A stretch of DNA of 64,000 bases, taken from the NCBI RefSeq assembly GCF_009827405.1, contig NZ_WTYY01000001.1:62001-126000 (forward strand). The letters run 5' to 3'. The DNA is from Alteraurantiacibacter aestuarii (lineage in GTDB: Bacteria; Pseudomonadota; Alphaproteobacteria; Sphingomonadales; Sphingomonadaceae). The notes under the pieces were generated by a model. It had not been told where the DNA came from, did no database searches, and saw nothing but the letters and a program-made list of their open reading frames with translations. The position numbers were made by a program, and so were the translations under genes. Positions 4,200-64,000 of this stretch are shown here, one piece after another. Positions within the stretch are counted from its first letter, which is position 1. Each line of letters starts with the position of its first letter.

Positions 4200-5849
4200 T
4201 CAATCGAGTGGGGGAGGGGCAAGGAACCAGCCTTCGCCGATCAGCCCTTCAAGCGGGGCTGCCATGATCGGATCGAGCACGAAATCATACAATTCATCAA
4301 AATCGGCGCGTTGATCGCCCATGATCGCCAGCAGGCAATTGCTGTCGCCCAGGCCATAGCGGCGCTCCTGCTTGCTCTCTCCGGCAAAGCGGGTGACGAT
4401 CAGCGGATCGACACCGTCCGGGTCCAGCCCGCTGTCCGCCAGCCGCCGGCGGATCGCGCTGGCCTGTCCGGGACCGTGCCCGCTGATCCAGTAGATGGTG
4501 ACACCGCGCTGGCGCAGGTTCGCAAGCTGCGCGGCCAGCGAATCGTTCGGCCTGTTCTGGCCCACCAGCGGCATCAGGCCATTGGCAGGGTCCAGATCGA
4601 TCAGGACGGCGGGCGGGCGATTGCCGCAGATCTGCAAGGCGGGATCGAGGCTGGGCGGATCGAGCAGCAGCATGCTCTCCCGTCCGCCGCCGTTGGGCTG
4701 GGCGGTGAGCTTGGCCATCACGTGGTCAAAGAACGGCTGGTAGGCTTCTGATCCAGTGCCCGGTGCCAGGTCGAATGGCGAACTGGCCGGGGAAGGCATG
4801 GATGTGACCACGCTCAGGCCCAGCGTTTCTGCGGCGCGCTCAAGCTGCGATGATGGCGGCGGGGTCGGTGTGGGTCTGGTGGCCGGTCTGGGCGCGGGAG
4901 CGATTGCGGGAGTGATGGCGGCTGGTGCTGGCGCTGGCGCTGCAACCGGAACAGCCACTGCCAGCGCGGCTGGCGCGGGCTCCTGCTCCACGCGTTCCGG
5001 AAGTAATGGTTCGGGAACTGGATCTGGATTTGGTGTCGCCGTGGCGGGTGGCGGCAGATTCACAATCGCCGCGCTGGCCAGCTGTGGGTCCTCCTGCACC
5101 GCCAGTGTTTGCTCCGCCTCTTCCTCCACCGGCGCTTCTGCCAGCATCACGCCTTCGCGTTCGGTCCGGCCCGGTTCAGCGCTGTCATCGGCAATGAAAT
5201 CGAAGGCGGAAGCGAACTCATCCTCGCGCGGGTTCTCTGGCGGCGGCGGCCCGATCAGTTCGGCATCAGGCTCCGCGCCAACCGGCTCGGGCACCACTGC
5301 GGCGATTGCGACTTCCGGTGTTGCAGCAGGAGCGGGCACTGGTTCCGGCTCTGGCTCTGGTTCCGGCAACAGCTCCGCCTGTGGCGCAATTTCAGGTGCA
5401 ATTTCAGGTGCTGCGGCGATTTGTGCCGCTTCTTCGCGCGCAAGCGAGCGGGCGAGCGCGGGGTCCGCGTCCTCCAGGGTGAGCACAATGACCGGTTCCG
5501 GACGCGCGCGTGCGGCGGGTTCGGGGGCCGCAGGTTCTGGAGTTGCAACCACAGCCGCCGCCGGGGCAGGTGCCGGGGTCGGGAGCGGGGTCGGCACTGG
5601 CGCAGCGATCACTGGCTCAGCTTCGCCAGCAGGGTCCGCCTCTATGGCGATCTGCTGAGCAGGCACCGTCTCTACCGCCAGATCTGCTGCTGTTTCTGCG
5701 CGCGAAGCCGGTTGCGCCGCCCTCTCACCGGGCGGAACATAGGGGCCATCGATGGCGGCAAGCACGTTCAGGGACTGGCAGCCCTGAAGCATGGTGGCCG
5801 CCAGCATCACGCCAAGCAGATGCCTTGTACGGGAACGACCAGGGCCCAT
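4200..5849 (-). CDS. Pro/Ala/Glu-rich lipoprotein with C-terminal HAD-like phosphatase domain
   Basis: A 549-residue predicted lipoprotein. After a basic start and a short hydrophobic stretch, LQGCQSL forms a lipobox near residue 24. About 300 residues of low-complexity Pro/Ala/Glu sequence follow ([14 protein letters not shown]), probably an extended linker. The C-terminal ~190 residues look like a HAD-superfamily acid phosphatase: [10 protein letters not shown] (DxD, motif I), YWISGHG (motif II), ESKQERR (motif III lysine) and [13 protein letters not shown] (motif IV). Motif I lacks the usual DETxLDN continuation. ATG abuts the scoA stop and the gene's own stop is just upstream of the scoB start, so it is embedded in the CoA-transferase operon. 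The function is unknown. Confidence 0.75.
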
Positions 5850-6754: not shown

Positions 6755-6893
6755 TGAGTTGCATATTTTGCAATACGAGTTGCGCTTTTCGCACTTGCGG
6801 AATCTGCCCCCCTAAACCATATCAATCTTGCCTTTCAGGCATCCTCTCCCAAAAACTTCCCAGGCCCGGTTGGCAACAACCGGGCCTTTTTTT
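6755..6893 (+). ncRNA. Candidate small RNA ending in a strong terminator
   Basis: The 615-base gap between divergent scoA and the CDC48 gene holds no convincing ORF, yet it contains a textbook terminator on the plus strand about 300 bases before the next gene. The region just before it is structured: TTGCA-TATTT-TGCAA and TTGCGC-TTTTCGCAC can form small hairpins, followed by a pyrimidine-rich single-stranded stretch (ATCCTCTCCC) like the anti-Shine-Dalgarno motifs of alphaproteobacterial trans-acting sRNAs. The 5' end is a guess, as no clear promoter is visible. It could instead be the attenuated leader of the CDC48 gene. Confidence 0.4.
6862..6893 (+). terminator. Rho-independent terminator
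   Basis: A perfect 11-bp stem AGGCCCGGTTG / CAACCGGGCCT closes a GCAA tetraloop and is followed by seven T residues. It is on the plus strand with no protein gene upstream of it, which is the main reason to suspect a small RNA or attenuated leader. Confidence 0.9.
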
Positions 6894-7185
6894 GTGCTGT
6901 TTTTGGACCGCTCTGGTCAGGTCCGCTTGCTGGCCGGTTGGAATGGAAGGCCCGGACGGACCTGTTGATCCAGCAATTCGCCCATGTCCTGCGCGCCGTG
7001 CAGCGCTCCACCGGATGGCAAATGCCCGATCAACGCAGCCTTGTCCTGCGCCAGACCCCACCTTCCAGACGCATGTTGACCATATTGACGCTGACACTGC
7101 CGCACATGATCGAAATGCCCGTTTGCAATCCGCAGTCGCGCTACCTAGCTTTCAATCGAGAGAAAAAGGCAGGACGGGAACCGAA

Positions 7186-49859: not shown

Positions 49860-51497
49860 TCAGGCTTGAAAGCCGAGCAAAGCTTCCTGATCGGCCCAAT
49901 CGGCAGGCAGCGCTGTCTCGAGCAGCACGGTACGGTTGATCGCTTTGGGCTGGGTGCCTGCAGCAATGGACTCAACAATACGTGGGCTAAGCCAACTCAC
50001 GCTCACCAGCTTGGCCAGCTGCTTGCGGCAGCGACCCTCTTGGTTTGCAACCTGATTGATGCTGAGTTTCGGGTTGTTAATGACGAGCTGCCGAGCCTCA
50101 AGCGCGTCGGCGATTAGCTGGACCAGTTTGTCATTCGGCATACTTCCCCGGTGTTCGGCATCAATCCTGAGCTTGGCCTCGCGGAATGGTTTTCGATTTG
50201 GTAGCGGGATGCTCCAGGCGAGCTTACCACCTGTCTCGGCCCCAAGTGCATCCGAGTTCAACTCGATCTCGATCCGCTCGGCGCGAACCTGCAACGCGGT
50301 GATCAGATCTTGCAAAATTGCTTCGCGCGAACTTTGGAACGCGAGCCGACAGGCAAGCAACCGACCAGTCTCGAAAATGGTCCGCAGGTGACCCGCTTCT
50401 TCGATACCTGACAGTCGGCGCAGTGCATGCTCATCTTCGAGCAGCTCGGTGAGATGCACGATCAAATGTCGCTCGAGTTGGCCCTGCACGAACCGGGTAG
50501 CTGGCGGATCGGCAGGCCGGGCCAAATCCTTGCGGGTCTCGTAGTAGGCATAACGACGGCTGCGCTTGGTGGCATAAGTCGGAACCATCGGGCGTCCATG
50601 TGGATCGGTCAGGAGGCCGCGCAGCATGGCCTTTTGCGGATCATTGGTAGGGCGCTTCCTCGGCGGTGCTTTCTCACTGAGCTGCGCCTGCACCGCATCC
50701 CAGAGGTGCTCGTCCACGATGGCTTCCTGCTCGCCTTCGTGGATATGGCCCTTGTGCACGATCTTGCCGCGGTAGATCGGGTTCTTGAGCAGGTGGAACA
50801 GGCTGCCACGCCCAAAGGGAACGCCGCCACGATGGGGGCCGCTTGTACGCTGCTGGATCTTTGTGACGATACCCTCACGGTGCAGAACCCCGATCAGGGC
50901 CGGGACCGATCTGACCTCGAGATAGCGGCGCATGATCCTGCGCACCCGCTCGGCCTCTTCGGGCACTGGAACCAGCTTACGATCGATCACTTCGTATCCC
51001 AGCGGCACGGGCCCGCCCATCCAGATACCCTTCTTTTTGGAAGCGGCGATCTTGTCGCGGATCCGCTCGCCGGTGACCTCGCGCTCGAACTGGGCAAATG
51101 ACAGCAGCACATTGAGCGTTAGTCTCCCCATGCTGGTGGTGGTATTGAACGCCTGCGTAACCGATACGAAGCTCGCCTGCCTGGAATCCAGCTGCTCGAC
51201 GATCTTGGCAAAGTCGGCGAGGCTGCGAGTAAGGCGGTCGACCTTATACACGACGATGACATCGACCAGGCCAGCCTCGATATCGGCCAGCAGCGCCTTG
51301 AGTCCCGGGCGAAGCATGCTTCCGCCCGAGAACCCGCCATCGTCGTAACGGTTCGGGACCAGCGACCAGCCCTCATGCCGCTGACTCAGGATGTAGGCTT
51401 CGCAGGCCTCGCGCTGGGCATCGAGGCTGTTGAACTCCTGCTTCAACCCGTCCTCGGTCGACTTGCGGGTGTAGACCGCGCAGCGCAGCAGCTTCAT
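49860..51497 (-). CDS. Large serine recombinase (site-specific)
   Basis: A 545-residue recombinase. The N-terminal resolvase domain has RCAVYTRKSTEDG (catalytic serine, about residue 13), DAQREACEAYI, YDDGGFSGGSMLRPGL, VDVIVVYKVDRLTRSLADF and SFAQFEREVTGERIRDKI. A 'Recombinase' domain (GYEVIDRKLVPVPEEAERVRRIMRRYLE) and a long C-terminal region follow. I see no CxxC zinc-ribbon. ATG at 51497 overlaps the DUF2924 stop (ATGA). It should integrate or excise the element. Confidence 0.93.
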   Translation of the reverse strand: MKLLRCAVYTRKSTEDGLKQEFNSLDAQREACEAYILSQRHEGWSLVPNRYDDGGFSGGSMLRPGLKALLADIEAGLVDVIVVYKVDRLTRSLADFAKIVEQLDSRQASFVSVTQAFNTTTSMGRLTLNVLLSFAQFEREVTGERIRDKIAASKKKGIWMGGPVPLGYEVIDRKLVPVPEEAERVRRIMRRYLEVRSVPALIGVLHREGIVTKIQQRTSGPHRGGVPFGRGSLFHLLKNPIYRGKIVHKGHIHEGEQEAIVDEHLWDAVQAQLSEKAPPRKRPTNDPQKAMLRGLLTDPHGRPMVPTYATKRSRRYAYYETRKDLARPADPPATRFVQGQLERHLIVHLTELLEDEHALRRLSGIEEAGHLRTIFETGRLLACRLAFQSSREAILQDLITALQVRAERIEIELNSDALGAETGGKLAWSIPLPNRKPFREAKLRIDAEHRGSMPNDKLVQLIADALEARQLVINNPKLSINQVANQEGRCRKQLAKLVSVSWLSPRIVESIAAGTQPKAINRTVLLETALPADWADQEALLGFQA

Positions 51498-51925
51498 CGT
51501 TTCGGATCCGTCAGGCCGAAGAACCCCGGGCCGCTGCAATGCGAACCGCTGATGGCCTTGGCGATCGCGGTGAGTGATCGCCATTTCTTGCCATCGTACT
51601 CAAAGCCATTTTCCAGGACGGTCACGGTGTGGCGGGCGCCGTGCCAGTCGCGCACCAGCCGGGTTCCGATGGTAAGCTTGCGTGGGGGCAGGCCGTTGCG
51701 TCCCCTATCCTTGGGTTGCGCAGCCAGCTCACGCAGTAATGATCTGGTCGAGCGGCTCACGCCGCCGAGCTTTTGCTCCTGCAGCCGATAGGCGATCCCC
51801 AGTCGCAGCAGGTCTGGCGACAGACTGGGAGCATGCGCGGCATATCGCCGCGCCCACTCCGCTTTCAGTTCTTCGGTTGGCATCTCTGCGAGCCGGTCGA
51901 GGGTAATGTAGGCGCGGCGTCCCAT
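51494..51925 (-). CDS. DUF2924 family protein
   Basis: A 143-residue protein typical of DUF2924: ITLDRLAEMPTEELKAEWARRYAAHAP, LLRLGIAYRLQEQKLGG, RKLTIGTRLVRDWHGARHTVTVLENGFEYDGKKWRSLTAIAKAISG and a GPGFFGL end. Families of this kind nearly always precede a serine recombinase in alphaproteobacterial mobile elements and may help it bind DNA. It is coupled by 4-base overlaps on both sides. Confidence 0.9.
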   Translation of the reverse strand: MGRRAYITLDRLAEMPTEELKAEWARRYAAHAPSLSPDLLRLGIAYRLQEQKLGGVSRSTRSLLRELAAQPKDRGRNGLPPRKLTIGTRLVRDWHGARHTVTVLENGFEYDGKKWRSLTAIAKAISGSHCSGPGFFGLTDPKR

Positions 51926-52254
51926 CAGCCTGCCACCACGCGATATACGCGCTCCTCGCCTTCTGCCTTCTCGCTAGTGATCTCATGGCCCTTCTTCTTC
52001 AGGCCGGTCAGTGCGGCTCGGGTAGTGTGCGGCAACCAACCGGTAGCAGCCACGATCTGCGCGATCGTGGCGCCCTGAGGGCGTTGGAGCATTCCAAGCA
52101 CCAAGCTGGACTTGCTGGACGGCTTGGCAGGCTTCGGTTCAACCTGAGCAGTTCGGATGGGCGCAGAATCTGCGACTTCGCCCGCTGGTTTTGGCTCGCG
52201 GGCCATGCGGCGAGCGCGCTTCGTAGCGGGCTTGTTCTCAACGGTATCGATCAT
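51925..52254 (-). CDS. DUF3489 family protein
   Basis: A 109-residue protein. A basic, Lys/Pro-rich N-terminal part (TKRARRMAREPKPAG) precedes a winged-helix-like domain, SSLVLGMLQRPQGATIAQIVAATGWLPHTTRAALTGLKKKGHEI, the DUF3489 signature. Its stop overlaps the DUF2924 start by 4 bases, so DUF3489-DUF2924-recombinase form one translationally coupled unit. ATG at 52254 is chosen; the upstream extension has no support. It probably binds DNA. Confidence 0.85.
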   Translation of the reverse strand: MIDTVENKPATKRARRMAREPKPAGEVADSAPIRTAQVEPKPAKPSSKSSLVLGMLQRPQGATIAQIVAATGWLPHTTRAALTGLKKKGHEITSEKAEGEERVYRVVAG

Positions 52255-52706
52255 CGGGTGGTACTCCGTGACGAAGCAGCACCTCGCTGCTCCCAGCACC
52301 CAAGGCCCTGCCGATCGCATCGGTCAGGGCAGCAGCCTTGGTTCAGGGCCGCGTTTCACTGACGGCACCAATGCTTGCGGTGACAGGGAAGTCCAATGGA
52401 TTGTCGGGGTACGGGAGATCTTGGCACGACGTTCGACCAATGACAGCTTTGCGCCCTAATTTCGGCCGTTCGCGCAAGCAAAACGCGATTCCGAAAGCAG
52501 CCGCTATCTGACTTCACCGAGTGCCTTTTTGATGGCGCTGGCATAGGGCTTCTTCCGCTGCATTCGCTGATAGCCGTTCCGCTCGGGGCACCGCTCAGGA
52601 CATGGCGCAACAGGTGTGGTTGGGGCCCCTATGCGGGGGGAACGCGGCGACAGGATTTGGTTTATTCAAGCATCGGAGAGGCGGAGCGTTTGCGCAGACA
52701 ATGGCG
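52255..52706. other. Gene-free stretch, 452 bases
   Basis: No ORF with a credible start and composition is present on either strand. The part next to 52254 should hold the promoter of the DUF3489-DUF2924-recombinase operon. I see no terminator or repeat that I can support. Confidence 0.4.
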
Positions 52707-54326: not shown

Positions 54327-56108
54327 CTACAGCCCTTTCAGATACTCTTGCACGGCTAAAGGATACTCATCGCCATCCAGCCCTTTGCCTTGTAAGTACT
54401 CAGCAAGAAAGTACTCTTGGAATGCTCGATGCGAGAAGCGCATCGGTACGCTCATTCGGTAACGTACTGCGACTGGAACTATAAGACTAGTCGACGCAAT
54501 TGAATGCAATGAAACTCTTGCGGTATTGAATATACGCTGGGCTATTGAAACCACTTCGCCCGAATCGATGGTTTCGGCGAGTTGGATGCGGCCACTGTCG
54601 TCAGTGTCGACCATCAGTCCAGCCGCCTCCGCCATTAGATTTCTGATCGAGTGCAGAAACTCGTCCCTATCGGTAATAGGGACGGGCGTTTCCCGGGCTG
54701 CTTTCAAATCTCTGATAAGCTTCTGGTCGGTCCAGAGGGAGATCAATTCTGAGCTGTTCTTGGCAGGGTGCATCCCCTCACCGATTAGGTCTAGGGTCAT
54801 GCGAAGAAAAAGAGGGTGCCTCAAAAACTCAGCGTCCCATCCTCCCGATTGCCTCTGTCGGACCGCTTCGAGGAAAACCGAGAAATTCTGGTTTTCAGGA
54901 TCTTGAATTGATACCTGCTCGACCAGCGCAATAATTTGCTGCCAGCCCCAGGGGGCAAGATGTAGAACCGGGATTCTCTTCGGGACTCCTTTCATTGATA
55001 GTTCATTGAAGAGATGATCATAATTCCCGAAAGACGCATTGAAATGCTCAGACCGGGTACTCAAAAGAATCCTGCATCTTAGTTCAGCTAAGGCACTAGC
55101 GAATCTTGTTATTTCAGACGGGCCGGCGAGGGATCGGTTCTCATCCAAACCATCAATTATGAGCGTCGCAGAGCTATCATTTGCTGAAAGTTCCTTGCGA
55201 AGCATCGCAGAGGCAAGTCGCTCAAAAATGCCTTTCTCATCTTCGTCAAAATCTGCGAAAATTGAGAGAGCCTTCAAAATATCTTGCATCAAGACGTGTG
55301 TGCCGACTCCACCCTTTTCGGGCTCAATGTCTGCAGCAGGAACGTAGATTACTCGGCTTGGAGCATGCCTGGCGATATTGAGGCACGAAGTGGATTTCCC
55401 GCTTCCAAAAAGCCCGGTCAACACGGCCCACCGGTCACCTCCTCTATCTAGCATGCCAGCGAGATCGGATTCTGTTGATGTTTCATCCACATCGACAATT
55501 CTGGCTCGTGACCCTCGGATCAGGTGCAATGAAGACAGCTGTATTGGAACTTTCGAAACTATGTCAGCAGGCTGGCTAAAATTCATGCCCGCTTGCCTGA
55601 TCATAAAGTCAGCTTGCTGACTAATTCGCTCTTCAATCATCTTCCAAAGAGCGTCCTGCAGAGCAGAGAATAACTTATGCCTATCCCACTGAAGCGCTCG
55701 GTCGGCACGGCCGCTTGCCACTAGGTCGGCTAGAAGCTGATCAATCTTTTCTGCTACGTCACGGTTACGCCCATCCTGATTATGGACCAAAACATATGTT
55801 TTGGTCTCAAGGCCAGAATCTCGAAACTTCTTGATCGACTTAGCGATTGGATCAAACTGATCATCAGCCAATCCCTCGACCTTGAAAAACCCTTTGCACT
55901 GGACTGCGCATTCGATCTCATCGTCGCTAGTCAAGCTGAGAAGATCAACGCCGCTGCGATCATACGCCTTCATCGCTGGCACCTGGACCAGACTAGGCCA
56001 TATCGCTCTCATTAGGGGCAGTACTGCCCTTTCAAAGTCTCGATCTGTGGCGGCATGGATCCTACCGTTTAGATCCTTCCAAGGTTTCGTACTCATCATC
56101 CCAGCCAT
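54327..56108 (-). CDS. PD-(D/E)XK nuclease-NACHT NTPase fusion (bNACHT/Avs-like)
   Basis: About 593 residues. The first ~150 form a restriction-endonuclease (Mrr-like) domain with D55 in SGVDLLSL and E66-x-A-V-Q70-C-K72 (ECAVQCKGF). A NACHT-type STAND NTPase follows: Walker A GLFGSGKST (about 232-240) and Walker B TLIIDGLDEN (about 315-324) with the NACHT DGLDE form. LLSTRSEHF and the winged-helix end FSHRAFQEYFLAEYL follow. The chain stops shortly afterwards without a repeat sensor, like short bacterial NACHT proteins. In Avs and bNACHT systems, phage sensing activates an N-terminal effector; here DNA cleavage is the inferred outcome. Start ATG 56108 is uncertain (56099 and 56096 possible). 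Low GC suggests transfer. Confidence 0.82.
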   Translation of the reverse strand: MAGMMSTKPWKDLNGRIHAATDRDFERAVLPLMRAIWPSLVQVPAMKAYDRSGVDLLSLTSDDEIECAVQCKGFFKVEGLADDQFDPIAKSIKKFRDSGLETKTYVLVHNQDGRNRDVAEKIDQLLADLVASGRADRALQWDRHKLFSALQDALWKMIEERISQQADFMIRQAGMNFSQPADIVSKVPIQLSSLHLIRGSRARIVDVDETSTESDLAGMLDRGGDRWAVLTGLFGSGKSTSCLNIARHAPSRVIYVPAADIEPEKGGVGTHVLMQDILKALSIFADFDEDEKGIFERLASAMLRKELSANDSSATLIIDGLDENRSLAGPSEITRFASALAELRCRILLSTRSEHFNASFGNYDHLFNELSMKGVPKRIPVLHLAPWGWQQIIALVEQVSIQDPENQNFSVFLEAVRQRQSGGWDAEFLRHPLFLRMTLDLIGEGMHPAKNSSELISLWTDQKLIRDLKAARETPVPITDRDEFLHSIRNLMAEAAGLMVDTDDSGRIQLAETIDSGEVVSIAQRIFNTARVSLHSIASTSLIVPVAVRYRMSVPMRFSHRAFQEYFLAEYLQGKGLDGDEYPLAVQEYLKGL

Positions 56109-56314
56109 GCTGTCGATGATAGAGGCCAGCCGATACAAAGCTAGTCGAAAGAGCCTCTAACGAGCGCTATTGCATCGTTGGCTGAATGTCGGCTTGGAAC
56201 TCAAGGAGCCTAAAAGCAGTCAGTCCGCAAACGGCCCAATTCCTGTCGTTTAGCGCAAGATCCCTTGCGGCAGCGAATGACTTTGGCGAACCTAATCGGC
56301 GCTAATCGGGATTC

Positions 56315-57109
56315 TTAAGCTCCTGGCATGTCACCCTGCCAGCAATGGATGCGATGCCACGCAAGGCGCGATCTGTGGTCGTCCGTCAGTACCAGCGGTG
56401 GAACGCTGCCGACGCTCATTTCTCTCGCCGCTTTGTCGTCGAGCAACGGCGAGGGTACTGCACGCCCATGATCATCGAAGGTCACGAGTCCACTGTCGAA
56501 CGCCGCATCCCAAAGCGATGAGAGCAAGAAGCCGTTATAGACATTCAATCGTTCCTGGTCGCTGTCGCACTTGGCCCAGCCGATGATATGCGATGCGCGC
56601 AGCAATTCCGGATTGGATATCCCTGTCAGCGGACACGTGCCATTCCAATAGTTCATCAAGGCATCACGAAAACGGGCCTGCCCGATGCGAACTTTCTGCA
56701 TCTGCTCGGCTTCGGTGTTTCCGAGATGCGCGGTCTCACGAACGAAATCTTCGAAGGGCAGCGTCGGAAGACTGATAGACAAGCGGTAGACTTCACCCAC
56801 CGCGGCGAAAAGTGCTTCCCGCCTCTCAAATGCAAAGGCTGCCACGTGGCCCTTGGCACAAGGGCTGGCCACTTCTGCCATCAATTCCCGCGCAGCGCCT
56901 GGATGAGAGATTGAGAGGAAGAATGGACCGGACATACCCGCAGGAGTGGCCGCAAGTGCTATTTCGCCAGGAGCCGAAGCAGAACGAAAGAACAGCCAGC
57001 CGGCCGACTGTTCCGGGCCGACCCGATAACCGTGTTCGTTAGCTGCATCGCGTAGCTCTGATTGGAGTAGGAATGGATATTCCGAGAGGCGGTTCTTCGC
57101 GTCGATCAT
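56315..57109 (-). CDS. HNH endonuclease (HNH_2 type)
   Basis: A 264-residue protein. The C-terminal half carries an HNH_2-type nuclease: YWNGTCPLTGISNPELLRASHIIGWA (C159, H174), N192-G, and DAAFDSGLVTFDD. The N-terminal ~120 residues (WLFFRSASAPGEIALAATPAG...FFLSISHPG) may bind a partner or DNA. Its ATG overlaps the stop of the 94-residue gene by 4 bases, making it the last gene of the coupled helicase-methylase operon. It is probably the cleavage component of a restriction-like system. Confidence 0.85.
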   Translation of the reverse strand: MIDAKNRLSEYPFLLQSELRDAANEHGYRVGPEQSAGWLFFRSASAPGEIALAATPAGMSGPFFLSISHPGAARELMAEVASPCAKGHVAAFAFERREALFAAVGEVYRLSISLPTLPFEDFVRETAHLGNTEAEQMQKVRIGQARFRDALMNYWNGTCPLTGISNPELLRASHIIGWAKCDSDQERLNVYNGFLLSSLWDAAFDSGLVTFDDHGRAVPSPLLDDKAAREMSVGSVPPLVLTDDHRSRLAWHRIHCWQGDMPGA

Positions 57110-57390
57110 TCTGCTTCAACCGGCTGATCGGCCCACATCGCAAAACAGCGCATAGCAGCCGCAACTTCATCAGCGGAACTCGCATCGCTAACATCAATAC
57201 CAAAATCTTCCAGCGCATCACGGGCGCCGTTGAACCAAGCGCGGAGGTAGGGGCGCAAGGCTGTCATGCTGGTATCCAGATCGGCCGCAATGATTCTTAC
57301 GAGCTCCATGAAATTGCGTTGCCCCGCCTCCATATGGAAACCGGCAAGCTGCACGTTATCCGAGAAGGTTTCCGGATCGAACTTGGTCAC
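57106..57390 (-). CDS. Unknown 94-aa helical acidic protein in the helicase-methylase operon
   Basis: A 94-residue protein predicted to be almost all helix (FMELVRIIAADLDTSMTALRPYLRAWFNGARDALEDFG, then EVAAAMRCFAMWADQ). It starts at GTG 57390, overlapping the previous stop (GTGA), and its own stop overlaps the HNH start. No family is recognised. Acidic composition and its place beside a nuclease make an accessory or inhibitor role possible; this is speculation. Confidence 0.7.
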   Translation of the reverse strand: MTKFDPETFSDNVQLAGFHMEAGQRNFMELVRIIAADLDTSMTALRPYLRAWFNGARDALEDFGIDVSDASSADEVAAAMRCFAMWADQPVEAE

Positions 57391-57668
57391 CGATATCCCT
57401 CCGTCCGTGGCCGCATGCCGCCGGCCACCAGCGTATCATCATAGGTGGCGAGGACGATGCGTTGGGTGCGGTATTCGCCGTGTCTGGCGATTTCGTTCCT
57501 CTGGAAGTCGCGGAAAGTTTCGCTTGGGCAGTCTTCGCCCATCACGTCCTTGAGATCGAGCTCAGCGCAACGGGGGGCGCGGGAGTCCTCGGCGCAGCCA
57601 AACGTAGTCCCCTCATGCCCATGGTCGCGCGCGAAGAGAGGTATCGAACGCGACGCCGTCGTACTCAT
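57387..57668 (-). CDS. Unknown 93-aa protein in the helicase-methylase operon
   Basis: A 93-residue protein with several Cys and His residues (FARDHGHEGTTFGCAEDS, CAELDLKDVMGEDCP) and a basic C-terminal part (FQRNEIARHGEYRTQRIVL). The ATG overlaps the methylase stop (ATGA) and its stop overlaps the next start (GTGA), so coupling supports it as real. No family is recognised. It could be a metal-binding or DNA-binding accessory protein. Confidence 0.6.
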   Translation of the reverse strand: MSTTASRSIPLFARDHGHEGTTFGCAEDSRAPRCAELDLKDVMGEDCPSETFRDFQRNEIARHGEYRTQRIVLATYDDTLVAGGMRPRTEGYR

Positions 57669-60600
57669 TCCATATTCTCAAAAAAGCGTAACGCCTCGTC
57701 TCTTTCTCGAAAGCGGCCCCAAACATTTTCGGATTTCTCTTTCCAAATCGGAAACGTGCCGAAGACATATTCGACTTCAGATCGAGCAAAACCAAACGCA
57801 GTGAAATACACTGCGTCAATCCACGCCCTCAGCATTAACCTCTCCTCGGGGTTAGTCGTGCTTAGATGAGTGCGGTCAAGATCTTTGGCGAAGAAAATCA
57901 CGCTATCCGATGTGTTCGTCAATGCCACCACCGCATCTATAAGACTATCATGGTGTTGAGCGACCGCCTCTGGAGGGACCACAAACGATTGCAAAAGCAG
58001 CGATTTAGTGAAGTTTGCGCCATAAAATTTTTGTCTGATTAGGTAATCAAATGGCGTTGAATTGAACATGGACAAAAATAGTGCAGACTGTCGTGGGTCG
58101 CCCTTACTTATCACGATATTTGGGGCCTTGTAGTTAAAAGCCGCTGGGCCAACAACACATCCAACCGCTGTGCGGAAATTGCTGATAACGTTTGTCGTAT
58201 CGCGGAAAGCGATATTCCAGTTATCACGCAAACCCCTAGCGGCCAGGTTGGCTTCTTGGAAAGCTCCACGCACCCAATAACGCGGCAAAATCTCGAAGTC
58301 CCGCTGCCCTTTTACCTCGAGGGTTGGTGTGATCGTTGCCGCCTTAATTCCAAACCGCTTTTCAGGAGGGATGCCGTCAAAGGTTGCAAATCGGTGGTCA
58401 AATTGATGAATTAGTTTGCCCTCGTAAACTGGAGCAAAAACTTCTTCCCCCAAAGCAAACCAAGAGCCTACGAGCTTATAACCCGCGCCTTGCAACTCCT
58501 CTAAGTCGCGCAGCTCGGCAGCATCGGAAGTCATATGCAGTCCGCTTGTGTAATGAGCATGCCACGGTGATACTCCGAGCGTGGGAAATGCAGTTGCGAC
58601 ACGGGTCAGAATGCGCAAATCTTCAGAACTCTCGCATTGCGGCAAAGTCCCCGTATCTGGATTAAGTTGCCGAGGTATCTCCCTGTTGATTTTGATTATC
58701 ACGCCTTCTTGAACTAGGTTTCGGGAGTGAGTCAGTCCAACTGCAAGCTTTAACACCGTTTCAGTGACAGCTCCCGTGAATGTCGCCAGAGAATAGCGCT
58801 CATGATAACCTACTGTAGGAAATAGCATCTCCCAGTTCTTGAAGTCGAATACCGATTCCAATCGTCCACTAGTAATGAGATAATCGGTGAAACCCTTCCA
58901 AGTGGAGCCAGTGAACATCATAGACTTCACTATAAGCCCGCTTTTCCCGGTCGCACTTAATAAACTTAGCGATAGTTCGGCGAAAAGGGGATAGAGGTTC
59001 AATTCGCCCACAGCGGATAATTTGAACCGGTTCGAGCTACGCAAGAACTTGCCGAAAGCTGAAACAAGCCGCTGCTCTTTGCCCCAAATCTTTGCAAGTT
59101 CTGGAGATTTTTCGAAGGCGGCAGAAATCAGTCGTTTACGCTTCGATGCATTGGCTTCTTCGGCGATTTCTGAGTACGCGGCAAAAAATTCGCGCTCAAG
59201 GATCGTAAATTTTTCCCACGGTGGGTTACCCAGAACAACGTCGAAGCCACCCTTTCCGATCAGCACATCGGGAAAGGCGAGCGGCCAATGGAAAGCGCGG
59301 GCGAATTCGGCGGCATCCACGCTGGCGGCTTCCAACGGGCCATAAATCTGCCCGCCGCCCAGCTTCTTCCAAACGTCTGCGGTGGTTGGCACTTGGCCGC
59401 GCTGATAGTTTTCCGGCACCTCCAGCTTGGGGAGTAGGTAGGCGGCAGTATAGAGATCGCAGGCGACCTTGGTAGCATAGCGATCGGGATCGCGCCGCCA
59501 CGCCTCGAACGCCTCGCGCTTCTTTTCCACTTGGCTCACCGTGTCTTCGCTCATCCGGCGGATCGTGGAAAGGTTCGCGGCCAATTTGCGCGGCGGCATG
59601 GCCCCGCCACCGCTATCGAAATCGAAAGCACCCTGGCCTTTCTTTTCGTTCTTGTTCTTTATGTTCCAGTATTTGGCCGCATCTTCGCTGTCGCCCGTCA
59701 GCGGTTTGTAGGCATCGTCGGGAATACCCTGCTCCAGTGCCTCAAGGTCGAACACGCCGAGCAGCGCGTCGCCGCAGCGGATATTGGCATCAAGAAAGCC
59801 CAGCGGTTGTCCTGGAGAAACACTCTCGATCCACAGCGCCACCTTGGCCAACTCCACCGCCATCGGGTTGCGATCCACCCCGTAGATGCAGCTTGAAACG
59901 ACATCGCGCAGTGCACGGTGATAATCGGGCGCATCGCTATCGCGAAGCTGGGCCACTCTGGTTGCCATGCGCCGCGCCGCGCCAAGCAGGAAATGCCCCG
60001 AGCCACTGGCAGGATCTATCACCCTGAGGGCCAGAATTGCCTCGACGCCGCCTTCCGCCTCAGCCCGATCCAGAACCGGATCCAGCGCGCTATCGAGCAG
60101 CGTCTGCACCAGACTGTCAGGGGTATAATAGCTTCCGCTGGTCTTGCGCGTGTTGCCCTTGAGCCCCGAATCCAAGGTAAAGGTGCGCCCCTCATCTTCG
60201 CGCATGGGAACGAGTTCCAGCAGGCCTTCATAGACGCTGCCCAGTTCCTCGGTCGCCATATCGCGCCAGTTGATCCGGACCCGGCGCTTGTCATCAATCA
60301 GCCAGCCAAGTTTGTAGATTGCAGCCAGCAATGCGCGGTTGGGCAGGCTTGCTTGCCCCAGATCCGGCGTAAGGCCGCGCGAAAACAGACTTCCCAAGGC
60401 CGGAAGTCCTAGCAGGCCCTCACCGCGTTCCAGTGCATTGAAGACGATCTTTACGCCTTCCCATGCATCCTGGTGGTGGTCGTGAGCGCCGCGCTGTGCG
60501 GACCGATCCCGAAGGTAGGCAAAGCCGTAATTTTCGCCGTAGAGCGCGCGGACAGCACGCGATGCGCCCGGCGCATGCAGCAGGTTTCGGTCTTCTGCGA

Positions 60601-61528
60601 CTGCGAGAAAGATCAACCGATAGACGGTCCGCAGCAGCTGTTCGAAGTAGCCGGACATCGACAATGCGCCTTCGTCGAGTTTCTGACGCAGGGCAGGGTT
60701 GGCATCGAGAAAACCCTGACCAAGGGAGAGCAGGGCGTCTTCAACATTGCCGCGCAGCCGGTCACGCGCAGCGGTTCCGGCACGCATTCCCGCCTCACGC
60801 CAACGCTCCAAAGCACAGTCACTGGCGGGCGCACCTTCAGCCCCGAATCGGCTGTTGTGAATAAGCAACCAGAGCGCGGTGAAGTCGGCGAACATTTCGT
60901 CGCGGAAGATCGCTCCCAGATCTGCCTCGATGTAGGCAGGCCGTGTGAAACTGGCATTGTCGCGCATGAGGCGGACGCGGTCTCCGGCAAAGACGAGGCC
61001 CCAGTAGAAATCCGGGTTGGCGTTCAGCCAGTCCTGCAGAAGGACCGCCGGAGAACGGCGCGCTATGCGGCCATCGGGCCCATCGCCGAATTCCGGCTGA
61101 GCCCGTGTGAAGCCATCGGCAAGCTTGCCGTCTTCGCCTGTCGCTGGTGCTGCGACAACGATCGGGACCTTCCCAGCTTTGGCTTCCCACGCGATACGGA
61201 AACGTCGGCCTTCCCGATCATGCGTGACTGGGCCGGCGAGCGAGAATCCGAAGGCTTCTTCGAGCAGCACTCGCACGAAGCCAGCCGTCTGGGTGACCGT
61301 AGGCTCGTCGATTGTACTGAAAGATTGCCAGTGCGCCTGGCCGATCCGAAAATAGCGCGTGATCTCGTCCCGCAGCGATGTCCCCTTGGGACACCCATAC
61401 TCGGCGGCAGTTTTCTGATCAGGTGTGGCAGAAGCGATGGCTGTGATCTGCTCCGGCGAGATAAGCCCGCCTTCGATCGTGATCGCGGCAAAGCCAAGAT
61501 CGGCTGCCCGTTTGCCCGGCCTGCTCAT
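57665..61528 (-). CDS. N6-adenine DNA methylase, DrmMI/PglX/Eco57I-like
   Basis: A 1287-residue protein. After an N-terminal helical region with RQKLDEGALSMSGYFEQLLRTVYRLIFLAVAEDR, the catalytic core has SYYTPDSLVQTLL (about 467), SAM motif I VIDPASGSGHFLLGAARRMA (about 503), IYGVDRNPMAVELAKVALWIES, and motif IV LGNPPWEKF (about 764). The last ~500 residues should be the target-recognition region. It is the size of DISARM DrmMI or BREX PglX, far longer than a simple modification enzyme. ATG shares its A with the helicase TGA (TGATG). The part after NPPW is clearly more AT-rich than the part before. Confidence 0.9.
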   Translation of the reverse strand: MSRPGKRAADLGFAAITIEGGLISPEQITAIASATPDQKTAAEYGCPKGTSLRDEITRYFRIGQAHWQSFSTIDEPTVTQTAGFVRVLLEEAFGFSLAGPVTHDREGRRFRIAWEAKAGKVPIVVAAPATGEDGKLADGFTRAQPEFGDGPDGRIARRSPAVLLQDWLNANPDFYWGLVFAGDRVRLMRDNASFTRPAYIEADLGAIFRDEMFADFTALWLLIHNSRFGAEGAPASDCALERWREAGMRAGTAARDRLRGNVEDALLSLGQGFLDANPALRQKLDEGALSMSGYFEQLLRTVYRLIFLAVAEDRNLLHAPGASRAVRALYGENYGFAYLRDRSAQRGAHDHHQDAWEGVKIVFNALERGEGLLGLPALGSLFSRGLTPDLGQASLPNRALLAAIYKLGWLIDDKRRVRINWRDMATEELGSVYEGLLELVPMREDEGRTFTLDSGLKGNTRKTSGSYYTPDSLVQTLLDSALDPVLDRAEAEGGVEAILALRVIDPASGSGHFLLGAARRMATRVAQLRDSDAPDYHRALRDVVSSCIYGVDRNPMAVELAKVALWIESVSPGQPLGFLDANIRCGDALLGVFDLEALEQGIPDDAYKPLTGDSEDAAKYWNIKNKNEKKGQGAFDFDSGGGAMPPRKLAANLSTIRRMSEDTVSQVEKKREAFEAWRRDPDRYATKVACDLYTAAYLLPKLEVPENYQRGQVPTTADVWKKLGGGQIYGPLEAASVDAAEFARAFHWPLAFPDVLIGKGGFDVVLGNPPWEKFTILEREFFAAYSEIAEEANASKRKRLISAAFEKSPELAKIWGKEQRLVSAFGKFLRSSNRFKLSAVGELNLYPLFAELSLSLLSATGKSGLIVKSMMFTGSTWKGFTDYLITSGRLESVFDFKNWEMLFPTVGYHERYSLATFTGAVTETVLKLAVGLTHSRNLVQEGVIIKINREIPRQLNPDTGTLPQCESSEDLRILTRVATAFPTLGVSPWHAHYTSGLHMTSDAAELRDLEELQGAGYKLVGSWFALGEEVFAPVYEGKLIHQFDHRFATFDGIPPEKRFGIKAATITPTLEVKGQRDFEILPRYWVRGAFQEANLAARGLRDNWNIAFRDTTNVISNFRTAVGCVVGPAAFNYKAPNIVISKGDPRQSALFLSMFNSTPFDYLIRQKFYGANFTKSLLLQSFVVPPEAVAQHHDSLIDAVVALTNTSDSVIFFAKDLDRTHLSTTNPEERLMLRAWIDAVYFTAFGFARSEVEYVFGTFPIWKEKSENVWGRFRERDEALRFFENME

Positions 61529-64000
61529 CAATTCGCCTCCGGCAGAAGGACATAGAGACCAATTATGTCGGCAGGCAGAACCGGCGTGACCTTTACGGTT
61601 GCGCCGCCACCCGCCGCCTCGGTCAATCGAAGGTGATCGTCGGACAGCGTCGCAGCTCTTTCCACTGCAAGCTTGCGGATTGCCTGCTGATAGGTTTCCA
61701 ACCTCCCCAGAGCGTTTTCGATCTGCCGCGTTCTGGCTGCCGGGTCGATATCGCTGCTGGCCTGCGCCTCGAGCAGCTCAAGCGCTTCAACGCCCTCAGC
61801 TGTGGCCTCATTGCTAATGCCAGTGAACGCGATTCCCACCGCTTCCTCTGCCAAAAGCAGGCGGTTCGTGCGGCCACTTGTTACCAGCTGAAAACGCAGC
61901 CGCAGTAGCAAGAGCGTGGTCATTTGGCTGACATCAGGTGTGCGCCAGACGCCCGCACGTCCTAGCGGATTGCCTTCTGCGCCGATCGGATCGAGCGCGC
62001 CTTCGGCCAATGTTTCGGCAAGAACGGCCACTATCGGATGAACTCTGCCGACATGTGTGACATTCGGTCTGAGGTCATCAGCAAAACTTATCTTCCTGGT
62101 GCCCTTCAGCCCGCGAACGGACAGCTGATCCCGCATTGTTTCGGGCAGCGAATCCAGATGCGCCAGCGTGAAATCTCCTTTGCGTTCCAGCGGAGCCTGC
62201 ACTCTTCTCAGCGCCCGATCAGTGAATCGCGCGACCTCTTCCGGCCCGCCGTTCAGTGCCCGCATCCTGCGCCATTCGGGGATCACTTCGTCGGGCTTGA
62301 GCGCACCCTGAGCATAACGAGCTCGGCTGGCCTTGGCGCCCTCCGCCGTGTCGCGCCACGCCATCTCGAAGCGCTCAGCCGATGTATCGAAGTCAAAGAC
62401 GTACTGGGTTCGCGAGCCATCATTGCGCAGCAGCACAGCCTGCATGAGCGCAGAAGTCACACTATCCTGGTCCTCAGGCATCGGCACATTGACGCCGGTT
62501 GCCTTCTCGATCTCCTTGGCCTTGCGGATGATTACATTGAGGACCGCGCCATCGATTGCGCTGTTCTCTCCATACATCATGACTGAGCGGACAATTTCCG
62601 CTTGTTGACCGAACCGGTCAACCCGACCTTCGCGCTGTTGGTGACGCGTCGGGTTCCAGCTCAGATCATAATGGACCACAGTATCGAATGCGCTCTGCAG
62701 ATTGATCCCTTCTGAAAGGCAATCGGTCGCAACCAGGATGCGCTTGTCATGGGCCTCCAGTGCGGCCACCCGTTCACGCCGCTCGTCGGGGGTCAGAGTC
62801 CCGGTCACCACAGCCACTTCGAACTTGGGATATGTCTCGCGCAGAACCTCGCCGAGAGCTTCGGCCGTGGCAATGAATCTGCAAAAGATGACCGGATTTG
62901 CGCCCTGCTTCAGCAAGGGCGTAAGTTCTGCCAAAAGAGCGCGGACCTTCGGATCTTCATCGCGCCTTCCATCAAGCCGATGAGCTGTATCGATGAGTCG
63001 GCTGAGAACCGTCTGCTCCTCACTCGCCTCGATCGCCGTAGCCGGCTCAATGTCGCCTTCGTCCATCACACCGTCTTCCGCATCGAACACAACCGGTTCA
63101 ATCGCTGTGGCATCTGAGGTTCCGCTCAACCGATTGGTCAGTGCACTGGCCGCAGCAGCCGGAGATGAGCCCACGCAGCGCATCAGAGCAAGAGTGCCCC
63201 AGAAAGCTAGCCGCCGCGTCTTTTTGTCCGCGCCAGCACGTTCGGTCACTTCAAGACAGTAGTCGAGCACGTCCTCCTGAAAGGTTGCGAAGTCCCCTGA
63301 AAGGGCATATGGAGCCTCCTTGGTTTCGTGACGAGCGAAGGCACGCTTCTCTTCCCAGCTGTCCTGAATGTCCGGCCTGCGGCGTTGGACGAAGTGCTGC
63401 GCCAAGCGCCTGGCATAACGCTCGCGGGCATTGGCATCCCCTGCCTCTGGTCCGCCAGTCAGATCCGCATGGATCAGCCCGAGAAGGCGGTCGTAAGCTG
63501 CAACATCACCGCTATGCGGGGTTGCTGTCAGCAAAAGCAGATGGCGGTCCGGATCAGAGGCGAGAGACTGGAGAAGTTCGAAGCGCTGGTGTTTGCCGCG
63601 CTCTCCCCCAACGCATGTATGTGCTTCATCGACGATAACGAGCGGAGGGCACGCGCGAGCGAAATCATCGCGGCGGCTATCAGCCTTGATATAGTCTAGG
63701 CTGACTACCGTGAATGGATAGGCCTCGAACAGGCTCTGGGAAGTGGGAAGTCCGCGCTCGAGACTGCGCGCTCGCGCTGATGTCACCGCGACCGCATCCA
63801 CATCAAACTTCTCAGCCAGCTCTGTCACCCATTGGTCGACCAGATGCGGCGGACACAGGACCGCAAAACTATCGACTGTCCCGCGGTCGAGCCATTCTCT
63901 CAGGATCAATCCCGCTTCGATCGTCTTTCCGATCCCCACATCATCGGCAATAAGTAGGCGCGCAACCGATTGCTTGAGCGCCACCATCAGGGGGACCAGC
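61528..64000 (-). CDS. SNF2-type DEAH helicase, 5' end beyond the window (DrmD/BrxHII-like)
   Basis: At least 823 residues; the reading frame runs through the window edge (VPLMVALKQSVARLL before the ATP site), so the true start lies outside. Walker A is ADDVGIGKTIEAGLIL, the DEAH box VIVDEAHTC, motif III LLLLTATPHSGD, and the C-terminal RecA lobe has FCRFIATAEALGEVL, ATDCLSEGINLQ and QREGRVDRFGQ. About 350 further C-terminal residues follow. This is the pattern of DISARM DrmD or BREX BrxHII helicases. It is directly coupled to the methylase. Confidence 0.9.
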   Translation of the reverse strand, partial: LVPLMVALKQSVARLLIADDVGIGKTIEAGLILREWLDRGTVDSFAVLCPPHLVDQWVTELAEKFDVDAVAVTSARARSLERGLPTSQSLFEAYPFTVVSLDYIKADSRRDDFARACPPLVIVDEAHTCVGGERGKHQRFELLQSLASDPDRHLLLLTATPHSGDVAAYDRLLGLIHADLTGGPEAGDANARERYARRLAQHFVQRRRPDIQDSWEEKRAFARHETKEAPYALSGDFATFQEDVLDYCLEVTERAGADKKTRRLAFWGTLALMRCVGSSPAAAASALTNRLSGTSDATAIEPVVFDAEDGVMDEGDIEPATAIEASEEQTVLSRLIDTAHRLDGRRDEDPKVRALLAELTPLLKQGANPVIFCRFIATAEALGEVLRETYPKFEVAVVTGTLTPDERRERVAALEAHDKRILVATDCLSEGINLQSAFDTVVHYDLSWNPTRHQQREGRVDRFGQQAEIVRSVMMYGENSAIDGAVLNVIIRKAKEIEKATGVNVPMPEDQDSVTSALMQAVLLRNDGSRTQYVFDFDTSAERFEMAWRDTAEGAKASRARYAQGALKPDEVIPEWRRMRALNGGPEEVARFTDRALRRVQAPLERKGDFTLAHLDSLPETMRDQLSVRGLKGTRKISFADDLRPNVTHVGRVHPIVAVLAETLAEGALDPIGAEGNPLGRAGVWRTPDVSQMTTLLLLRLRFQLVTSGRTNRLLLAEEAVGIAFTGISNEATAEGVEALELLEAQASSDIDPAARTRQIENALGRLETYQQAIRKLAVERAATLSDDHLRLTEAAGGGATVKVTPVLPADIIGLYVLLPEAN

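Follow-up and report, generated by a model that had tools for sequence, protein, structure and literature searches.

Layout and class of the operon

The stretch analysed here, referred to as the window, comprises 64,000 nucleotides of the Alteraurantiacibacter aestuarii genome (69.7% complete) and spans positions 62001 to 126000 of a contig of 514,539 bases. Between 56315 and its end at 64000 it carries five minus-strand genes coupled by overlaps, which encode an SNF2 helicase, a DNA methylase, the products of two small open reading frames (ORFs; s1 and s2) and an HNH nuclease. The junctions read TGATG (SNF2/methylase), ATGA (methylase/s1), GTGA (s1/s2) and ATGA (s2/HNH). ORF positions and all four junctions agree with an earlier sequence-only reading, which described a distinct or reduced restriction-like defence operon lacking the genes that define DISARM and BREX. 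The restriction-like character, the missing genes and the HNH as a genuine member of the operon hold, "reduced" does not, since a YprA-family helicase lay just past the window, in the place where that reading had allowed for drmA, drmB, drmC or pglZ. In the extended window locus (L002), coupling reaches this sixth gene: the SNF2 gene overlaps it at a TTGATG junction, by one base with an ATG start or by four with a TTG start (L002:10314-10317; 64314-64317 on the window scale). The operon thus runs past base 64,000 into a YprA-family helicase and is neither DISARM nor BREX nor reduced. In the order of transcription, its genes are:

64314-69464 on the window scale (L002:10314-15464), minus strand, wholly beyond the window: YprA-family helicase, 1,716 amino acids
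61528-64317 on the window scale, minus strand, running off the window at 64000: SNF2/RapA-like (BrxHII-like) helicase, 929 amino acids
57665-61531, minus strand: PglX/DrmMI-like N6-adenine DNA methylase, 1,288 amino acids
57387-57668, minus strand: s1, putative methylase-tail stub, 93 amino acids
57106-57390, minus strand: s2, likely N-terminal piece of an ImmA/IrrE-like accessory protein, 94 amino acids
56315-57109, minus strand: HNH endonuclease with two domains, 264 amino acids

The YprA protein matches DEAD (PF00270), Helicase_C (PF00271) and MZB/DUF1998 (PF09369) above cut-off, all in one polypeptide, keeps Walker A and a DELH motif, and finds its best PADLOC matches in DruE (294.6 bits). 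The SNF2 helicase, in which the DEAH box is present, has a full-length PADLOC match to PDLC02853 (labelled DpdE; 638.6 bits), followed by DrmD and BrxHI/BrxHII (207.6 bits for the latter); its match to NCBIfam RapA (133 bits) lies under the equivalog cut-off of 576. The methylase carries a S-adenosylmethionine motif and NPPW at residue 769, and matches Eco57I, an N6-adenine methylase (76 bits, cut-off 25.3), PADLOC DrmMI (208.8 bits) and, under the cut-off of 400, PglX (56 bits). The N6-methylase call of the sequence-only reading, and the likeness it saw to the pairs DrmD-DrmMI and BrxHII-PglX, are thus borne out.

A YprA protein with MZB/DUF1998, a BrxHII/RapA-like helicase and a PglX/DrmMI-like methylase, in this order, are the traits of ARMADA Type I, for which the main text of a preprint by Bell et al. 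(2025; PMC12458937) gives the order YprA, RapA/BrxHII-like helicase, PglX-like methylase. Judged by gene content and order, rather than by YprA clade as in the paper's class definition, the operon belongs to ARMADA Type I. By the description in the same text, ARMADA Type II (E. coli NCTC 12900), which protects E. coli, has the same three core families, but there YprA stands third and a GajB-like ArmD is present, whereas the window operon has YprA first and is without ArmD.

The Vsr domain and the HNH nuclease

For comparison we assembled a set of loci that is biased towards relatives of the window. Its sources were plasmids (8 of 383 records with a methylase match used), 396 genomes from the window's order (32 gave some match at E 1e-20, and 11 of these besides the window were taken as ARMADA-like) and genome contigs (at least 575, the best 80 being used); we also searched viral contigs. 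Further samples covered the phylum (398 genomes), Actinomycetota-, Cyanobacteriota- and Acidobacteriota-type phyla (346, 194 and 199) and the class (240). Among the first 106 loci, which include 4 repeats, 102 have a BLAST match to SNF2 and 96 have one to YprA.

According to the main text of PMC12458937, the C-terminal Vsr domain of Type I and Type II YprA is predicted to be active. In a C-terminal alignment, the Vsr motif (E, PDF, DGPxH) is intact in some loci; it is gone from the window YprA and from all rows of the surrounding 54-row clade. The dead domain still matches the intact one by profile, and the window Vsr seems to keep its fold without the active site. Since the trait of a predicted active Vsr is lacking, we file the operon as a variant of ARMADA Type I as the preprint's text describes it, set apart by a Vsr without catalytic residues, a co-inherited HNH and a replaced methylase recognition end with a tail stub. 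It belongs to a branch that looks HNH-dependent, and it carries the apparent fossil of a specificity swap.

The HNH protein matches HNH_2 (PF13391) with 37.3 bits (cut-off 21), in line with the sequence-only reading, and consists of an N-terminal alpha/beta domain (residues ~1-115) and a VcaM4I-like HNH catalytic domain (~120-260), in which H174, N192, D201 and D205 are invariant in 47 of 47 rows. We judged 108 of the 122 loci that have all three core genes; the other 14 were dropped because the YprA end lay outside the stretch, because less than 5 kb without an HNH was available downstream, or as a duplicate (L173), and near-duplicates (>90% YprA identity) remain among the 108. A downstream HNH on the same strand is present in 71 of the 108, including the window, and in all 71 carriers it lies downstream of the methylase and on its strand, at a gap ranging from overlap to 8.7 kb. 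Its presence goes with the loss of Vsr: an HNH follows the methylase in 61 of 65 dead-Vsr loci (none in 4) and in 10 of 43 intact-Vsr loci (none in 33), which gives a Fisher p of 1e-14 with kinship and near-duplicates ignored.

Absence of the HNH was checked beyond the locus stretch for 14 of the 33 intact-Vsr loci. Twelve whole genomes of such loci contained no two-domain HNH and one match to the catalytic domain; of two further intact-Vsr loci, L124 has no HNH elsewhere and L123 has a partial catalytic-domain match on another contig. Among the dead-Vsr loci without HNH, the family was not found genome-wide for L047 and L090, nor in the plasmid record of L037. These three of the four look damaged at or right after the methylase: L047 by an apparent serine recombinase, L090 by truncation of the methylase itself and L037 by an annotated IS21 element.

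The HNH shares the inheritance of YprA, and the recognition end of the methylase does not. Across 67 loci, Mantel rank correlations with YprA are 0.95 for SNF2, 0.94 for the N-terminal part of the methylase, 0.89 for the HNH N-terminal domain and 0.76 for the HNH catalytic domain, versus 0.09 for the methylase recognition region. Thus, the HNH is co-inherited with YprA, whereas the recognition end is freely exchanged. Moreover, in 201 genomes of the order, all five matches that cover both HNH domains lie at ARMADA methylase loci.

In a YprA tree calculated with the Vsr part excluded (FastTree, 115 rows), HNH carriers fall within a 65-row clade (support 99). It consists of an 11-row beta/gammaproteobacterial branch with intact Vsr, 9 of 11 rows having the HNH, and of the 54-row Vsr-dead branch (support 100). 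The tree omits 20 rows (duplicates, truncated or odd ones), leaves 22 of 112 inner branches open and has several long end branches, and rows without SNF2 and methylase in the stretch are counted as lacking the HNH by default. Since the HNH is basal in the 65-row clade and Vsr loss is nested inside it, the HNH would have been gained first and Vsr would have decayed later, once. This order is consistent with the prediction of a replacement in which the cutter moves from cis to trans. The literature searches made listed no other paper that links ARMADA with HNH and Vsr in this way, and in the main text of PMC12458937 HNH occurs only within a reference title. A parallel exists in Druantia III with ZorE, where, according to PMC13192584, a YprA-family helicase is likewise combined with a partner bearing an HNH nuclease; there, the nuclease domain of DruE is predicted to be active and ZorE comes from another system.

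The methylase recognition end and the slot before the HNH gene

The window methylase is a mosaic. Its catalytic part (residues 1 to ~800) is of Novosphingobium type, and its C-terminal target-recognition part (~805-1288) is of a different lineage, nearest to Sneathiella among the loci compared. In blocks of 100 residues, identity to the methylase of Novosphingobium meiothermophilum (L043) is 74-83% to residue 600, 64-66% to residue 800 and 25-38% beyond, and identity to that of Sneathiella (L054) is 35-71% up to residue 800 and 51-71% beyond. Across 104 methylases (5,355 pairs), the recognition regions have a median identity of 39-50%, irrespective of how similar the N-terminal parts are. The methylases of L075 and L093, for instance, are 95% identical in the N-terminal part and 35% in the recognition region, and those of L123 and L132 show 51% and 74%.

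This exchange bears on s1 and s2, which the sequence-only reading took for two unrecognised small proteins of the system. Their alignments point instead to the C-terminal end of a methylase (s1) and to a part of one larger protein (s2). s1 shares 50-56% identity with the tails of methylases from the nearest loci (best E 9e-29); in the L046 methylase it aligns to the final 107 residues, with an internal gap of 19 residues. It has matches in 84 of 106 loci, which among the rows listed are methylase gene ends and one frameshifted end. s2 matches in 1 other locus of the 106, where it aligns to residues 39-130 of a 408-residue M78-peptidase-like protein (L058; 37% over 92 residues, E 5e-13); there is no second match, and in a search with that family's profile s2 is only just detected (E 0.0013). 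The order in L058, methylase tail, M78-peptidase-like protein, HNH, equals that of s1, s2 and HNH. s1 therefore looks like the detached tail of a previous methylase, a relic, and s2 is, on one match, probably the relic N-terminal fragment of an ImmA/IrrE-like accessory protein. We read the pair as the possible remnant of an arrangement like that of L058, left when recombination brought in a new recognition end, the part on s2 again depending on one match.

A second tail-bearing ORF occurs in 4 of 153 loci, namely the window, L107, where the stub sits just before the HNH, L165 and, weakly (E 6e-4), L160. L165, in which Vsr is intact, has two separate tail stubs (5649-5807 and 6822-7097) behind a single ARMADA methylase, as might be left by two swaps in succession. 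In L187 the sole tail is detached from the methylase, which matches the profile to position 805. As to whether the small genes and the HNH recur with other copies of the helicase-methylase pair, a point on which the sequence-only reading had staked its proposal, the small genes are absent as such and the HNH is present, as counted above.

Between methylase and HNH we found none to five ORFs in 62 HNH loci (10 near-duplicates excluded), a count in which small ORFs are under-represented. The clusters, named from one or two scanned members each, comprise LmuB-like DUF2326 ATPases (21 loci), ImmA/IrrE-like, GmrSD_N and UvrD-like proteins, and an HD/dGTPase-like protein with a DarG-like partner. 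The LmuB-like gene goes together with a methylase extension of 170-200 residues, in 13 of the 21 loci by pattern and in 7 more by length and inspection, the remaining one having a broken methylase frame; the extension pattern was found in 0 of the 32 judgeable among the 41 HNH loci without an LmuB-like gene. It is as if ATPase and extension docked together. Such Lamassu-type ATPases with a C-terminal methylase extension are seen in L054, L064, L067, L071, L080 and others. UvrD-like helicases of ~900 residues lie in the same slot in L035 (18528-21251), L056 (15325-18033) and L108 (20209-22884) and recall the ArmD of ARMADA Type II; L035, the one scanned, has an ATPase match near residue 250.

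Several flanking genes deserve mention. Beyond the window, 230 bases upstream of YprA, lies a 511-residue gene without family match (L002:15695-17230), adjoined by a 783-residue PLD-like gene (L002:17232-19583), with which it forms a two-gene module. The two are directly adjacent in 7 of the 8 plasmid records listed (8 of 22 rows), and in Rhizobium gallicum (L190) the pair also stands beside ARMADA, in divergent orientation. The ORF beyond the PLD-like gene resembles an IS6-type transposase. Within the window, the HNH gene is followed on its strand by a gene for a 603-residue NACHT/AAA-like protein (54327-56138) that is weakly like antiphage EruA (30.6 bits, cut-off 1000) and has no match at any other of the first 106 loci. 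At 49860-52320, ORFs look like a large serine recombinase (574 residues) followed by two small genes of integrated-element type, which suggests that a mobile element carries or adjoins the defence genes.

Proposed mechanism and alternatives

We infer that the operon has anti-phage activity, that the HNH cuts for the system in place of Vsr, and that the helicases act as follows. The PglX-like methylase would mark host DNA, its C-terminal recognition region determining the motif, and the RapA-like and YprA-like helicases would load on and move along unmarked or replicating incoming phage DNA. In ancestral ARMADA, cutting would fall to the Vsr domain fused to YprA; here it would be done by the HNH, recruited through its own N-terminal domain. 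The stretch between methylase and HNH may serve as an exchange slot in which recombination replaces the recognition end and accessory genes, s1 and s2 being possible leftovers of the previous occupant. That the operon belongs to an ARMADA Type I subtype whose effector nuclease has moved from cis to trans is the reading we favour as reasonably probable. For the wider statement we see about even chances: that a large ARMADA branch swapped Vsr for a separate HNH, and that the methylase-HNH stretch is a general cassette slot for recognition end, tail and accessory effector between fixed parts, with stubs recording former specificities.

Several observations weigh against a replacement of Vsr by the HNH. 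In L158, the last of the four HNH-less dead-Vsr loci, Vsr has decayed only in part, and the genome contains no HNH; this locus is a separate, partial case of Vsr decay. Because the HNH was gained, and Vsr lost, in essentially one event each, the association lacks statistical independence, and a paired test had two pairs and no power, so that a single event is left to which no p value applies. The ten loci of one branch that have both nucleases indicate that the HNH can coexist with Vsr, and two full-length plasmid homologues (L188, L189) without ARMADA genes within 9 kb indicate that it can exist alone. What the preprint tested (PMC12458937, main text) is a Type II system, outside this comparison. 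Beside these points we note that the solitary homologue of Rhizobium sp. SU303 (L189:8959-9738) adjoins a TIR-domain gene.

The HNH might instead act on its own, as a modification-dependent (Type IV) endonuclease that accompanies ARMADA, cuts modified phage DNA and so complements the methylase-helicase system. It is like the modification-dependent endonucleases VcaM4I and TagI in its catalytic domain and in having a second domain before it; VIA-align aligned just the catalytic part (model residues 120-260 and 141-264), and it differs from them in being encoded inside an ARMADA operon. We consider this alternative rather unlikely. It is also conceivable that no nuclease is needed, the helicases blocking phage replication, Vsr having decayed for that reason and the HNH being one more accessory. 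BREX is considered to block phage replication in this way. The loss of Vsr across a large and successful clade and the four dead-Vsr loci without HNH fit this idea, to which we give a small chance: the catalytic residues of the HNH are invariant, unlike the freely replaced accessory genes before it, and three of those four loci look damaged.

Equally improbable, in our judgement, is a function for s1 and s2 as small proteins in their own right, such as an inhibitor or a toxin-antitoxin pair. Their frames have stayed open with tight stop/start overlaps, but s1 corresponds to a methylase tail from which an internal piece is missing, s2 aligns to part of one longer protein only, and the free pair was found nowhere else in 106 loci. 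A distinct or reduced DISARM- or BREX-like system, finally, can hardly be upheld. The SNF2 helicase and methylase do resemble DrmD and DrmMI of class 1 DISARM; however, DrmC (23.5 bits, cut-off 133) and DrmD (296 bits, cut-off 610) stay below threshold, a complete YprA helicase follows in the extended contig, and it holds helicase and MZB canopy in one protein, which DISARM splits (PMC12458937, main text). With BREX the operon shares the PglX-like methylase and the BrxHII-like helicase, but PglZ (PF08665), which defines BREX, has no match in the 69.7%-complete genome.

ARMADA has been described only recently. If the branch around the window relies on a separate HNH, the cutting step would be genetically separable, and cores with Vsr, with Vsr and HNH, and with HNH exist. 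For annotation, there is reason to carry ARMADA Type I operons through to the HNH gene and to regard small ORFs that lie after the methylase and ahead of the HNH as possible relics. The decoupling of the methylase recognition end suggests that specificity evolves by swapping, so that methylation motifs should differ between near-identical operons.

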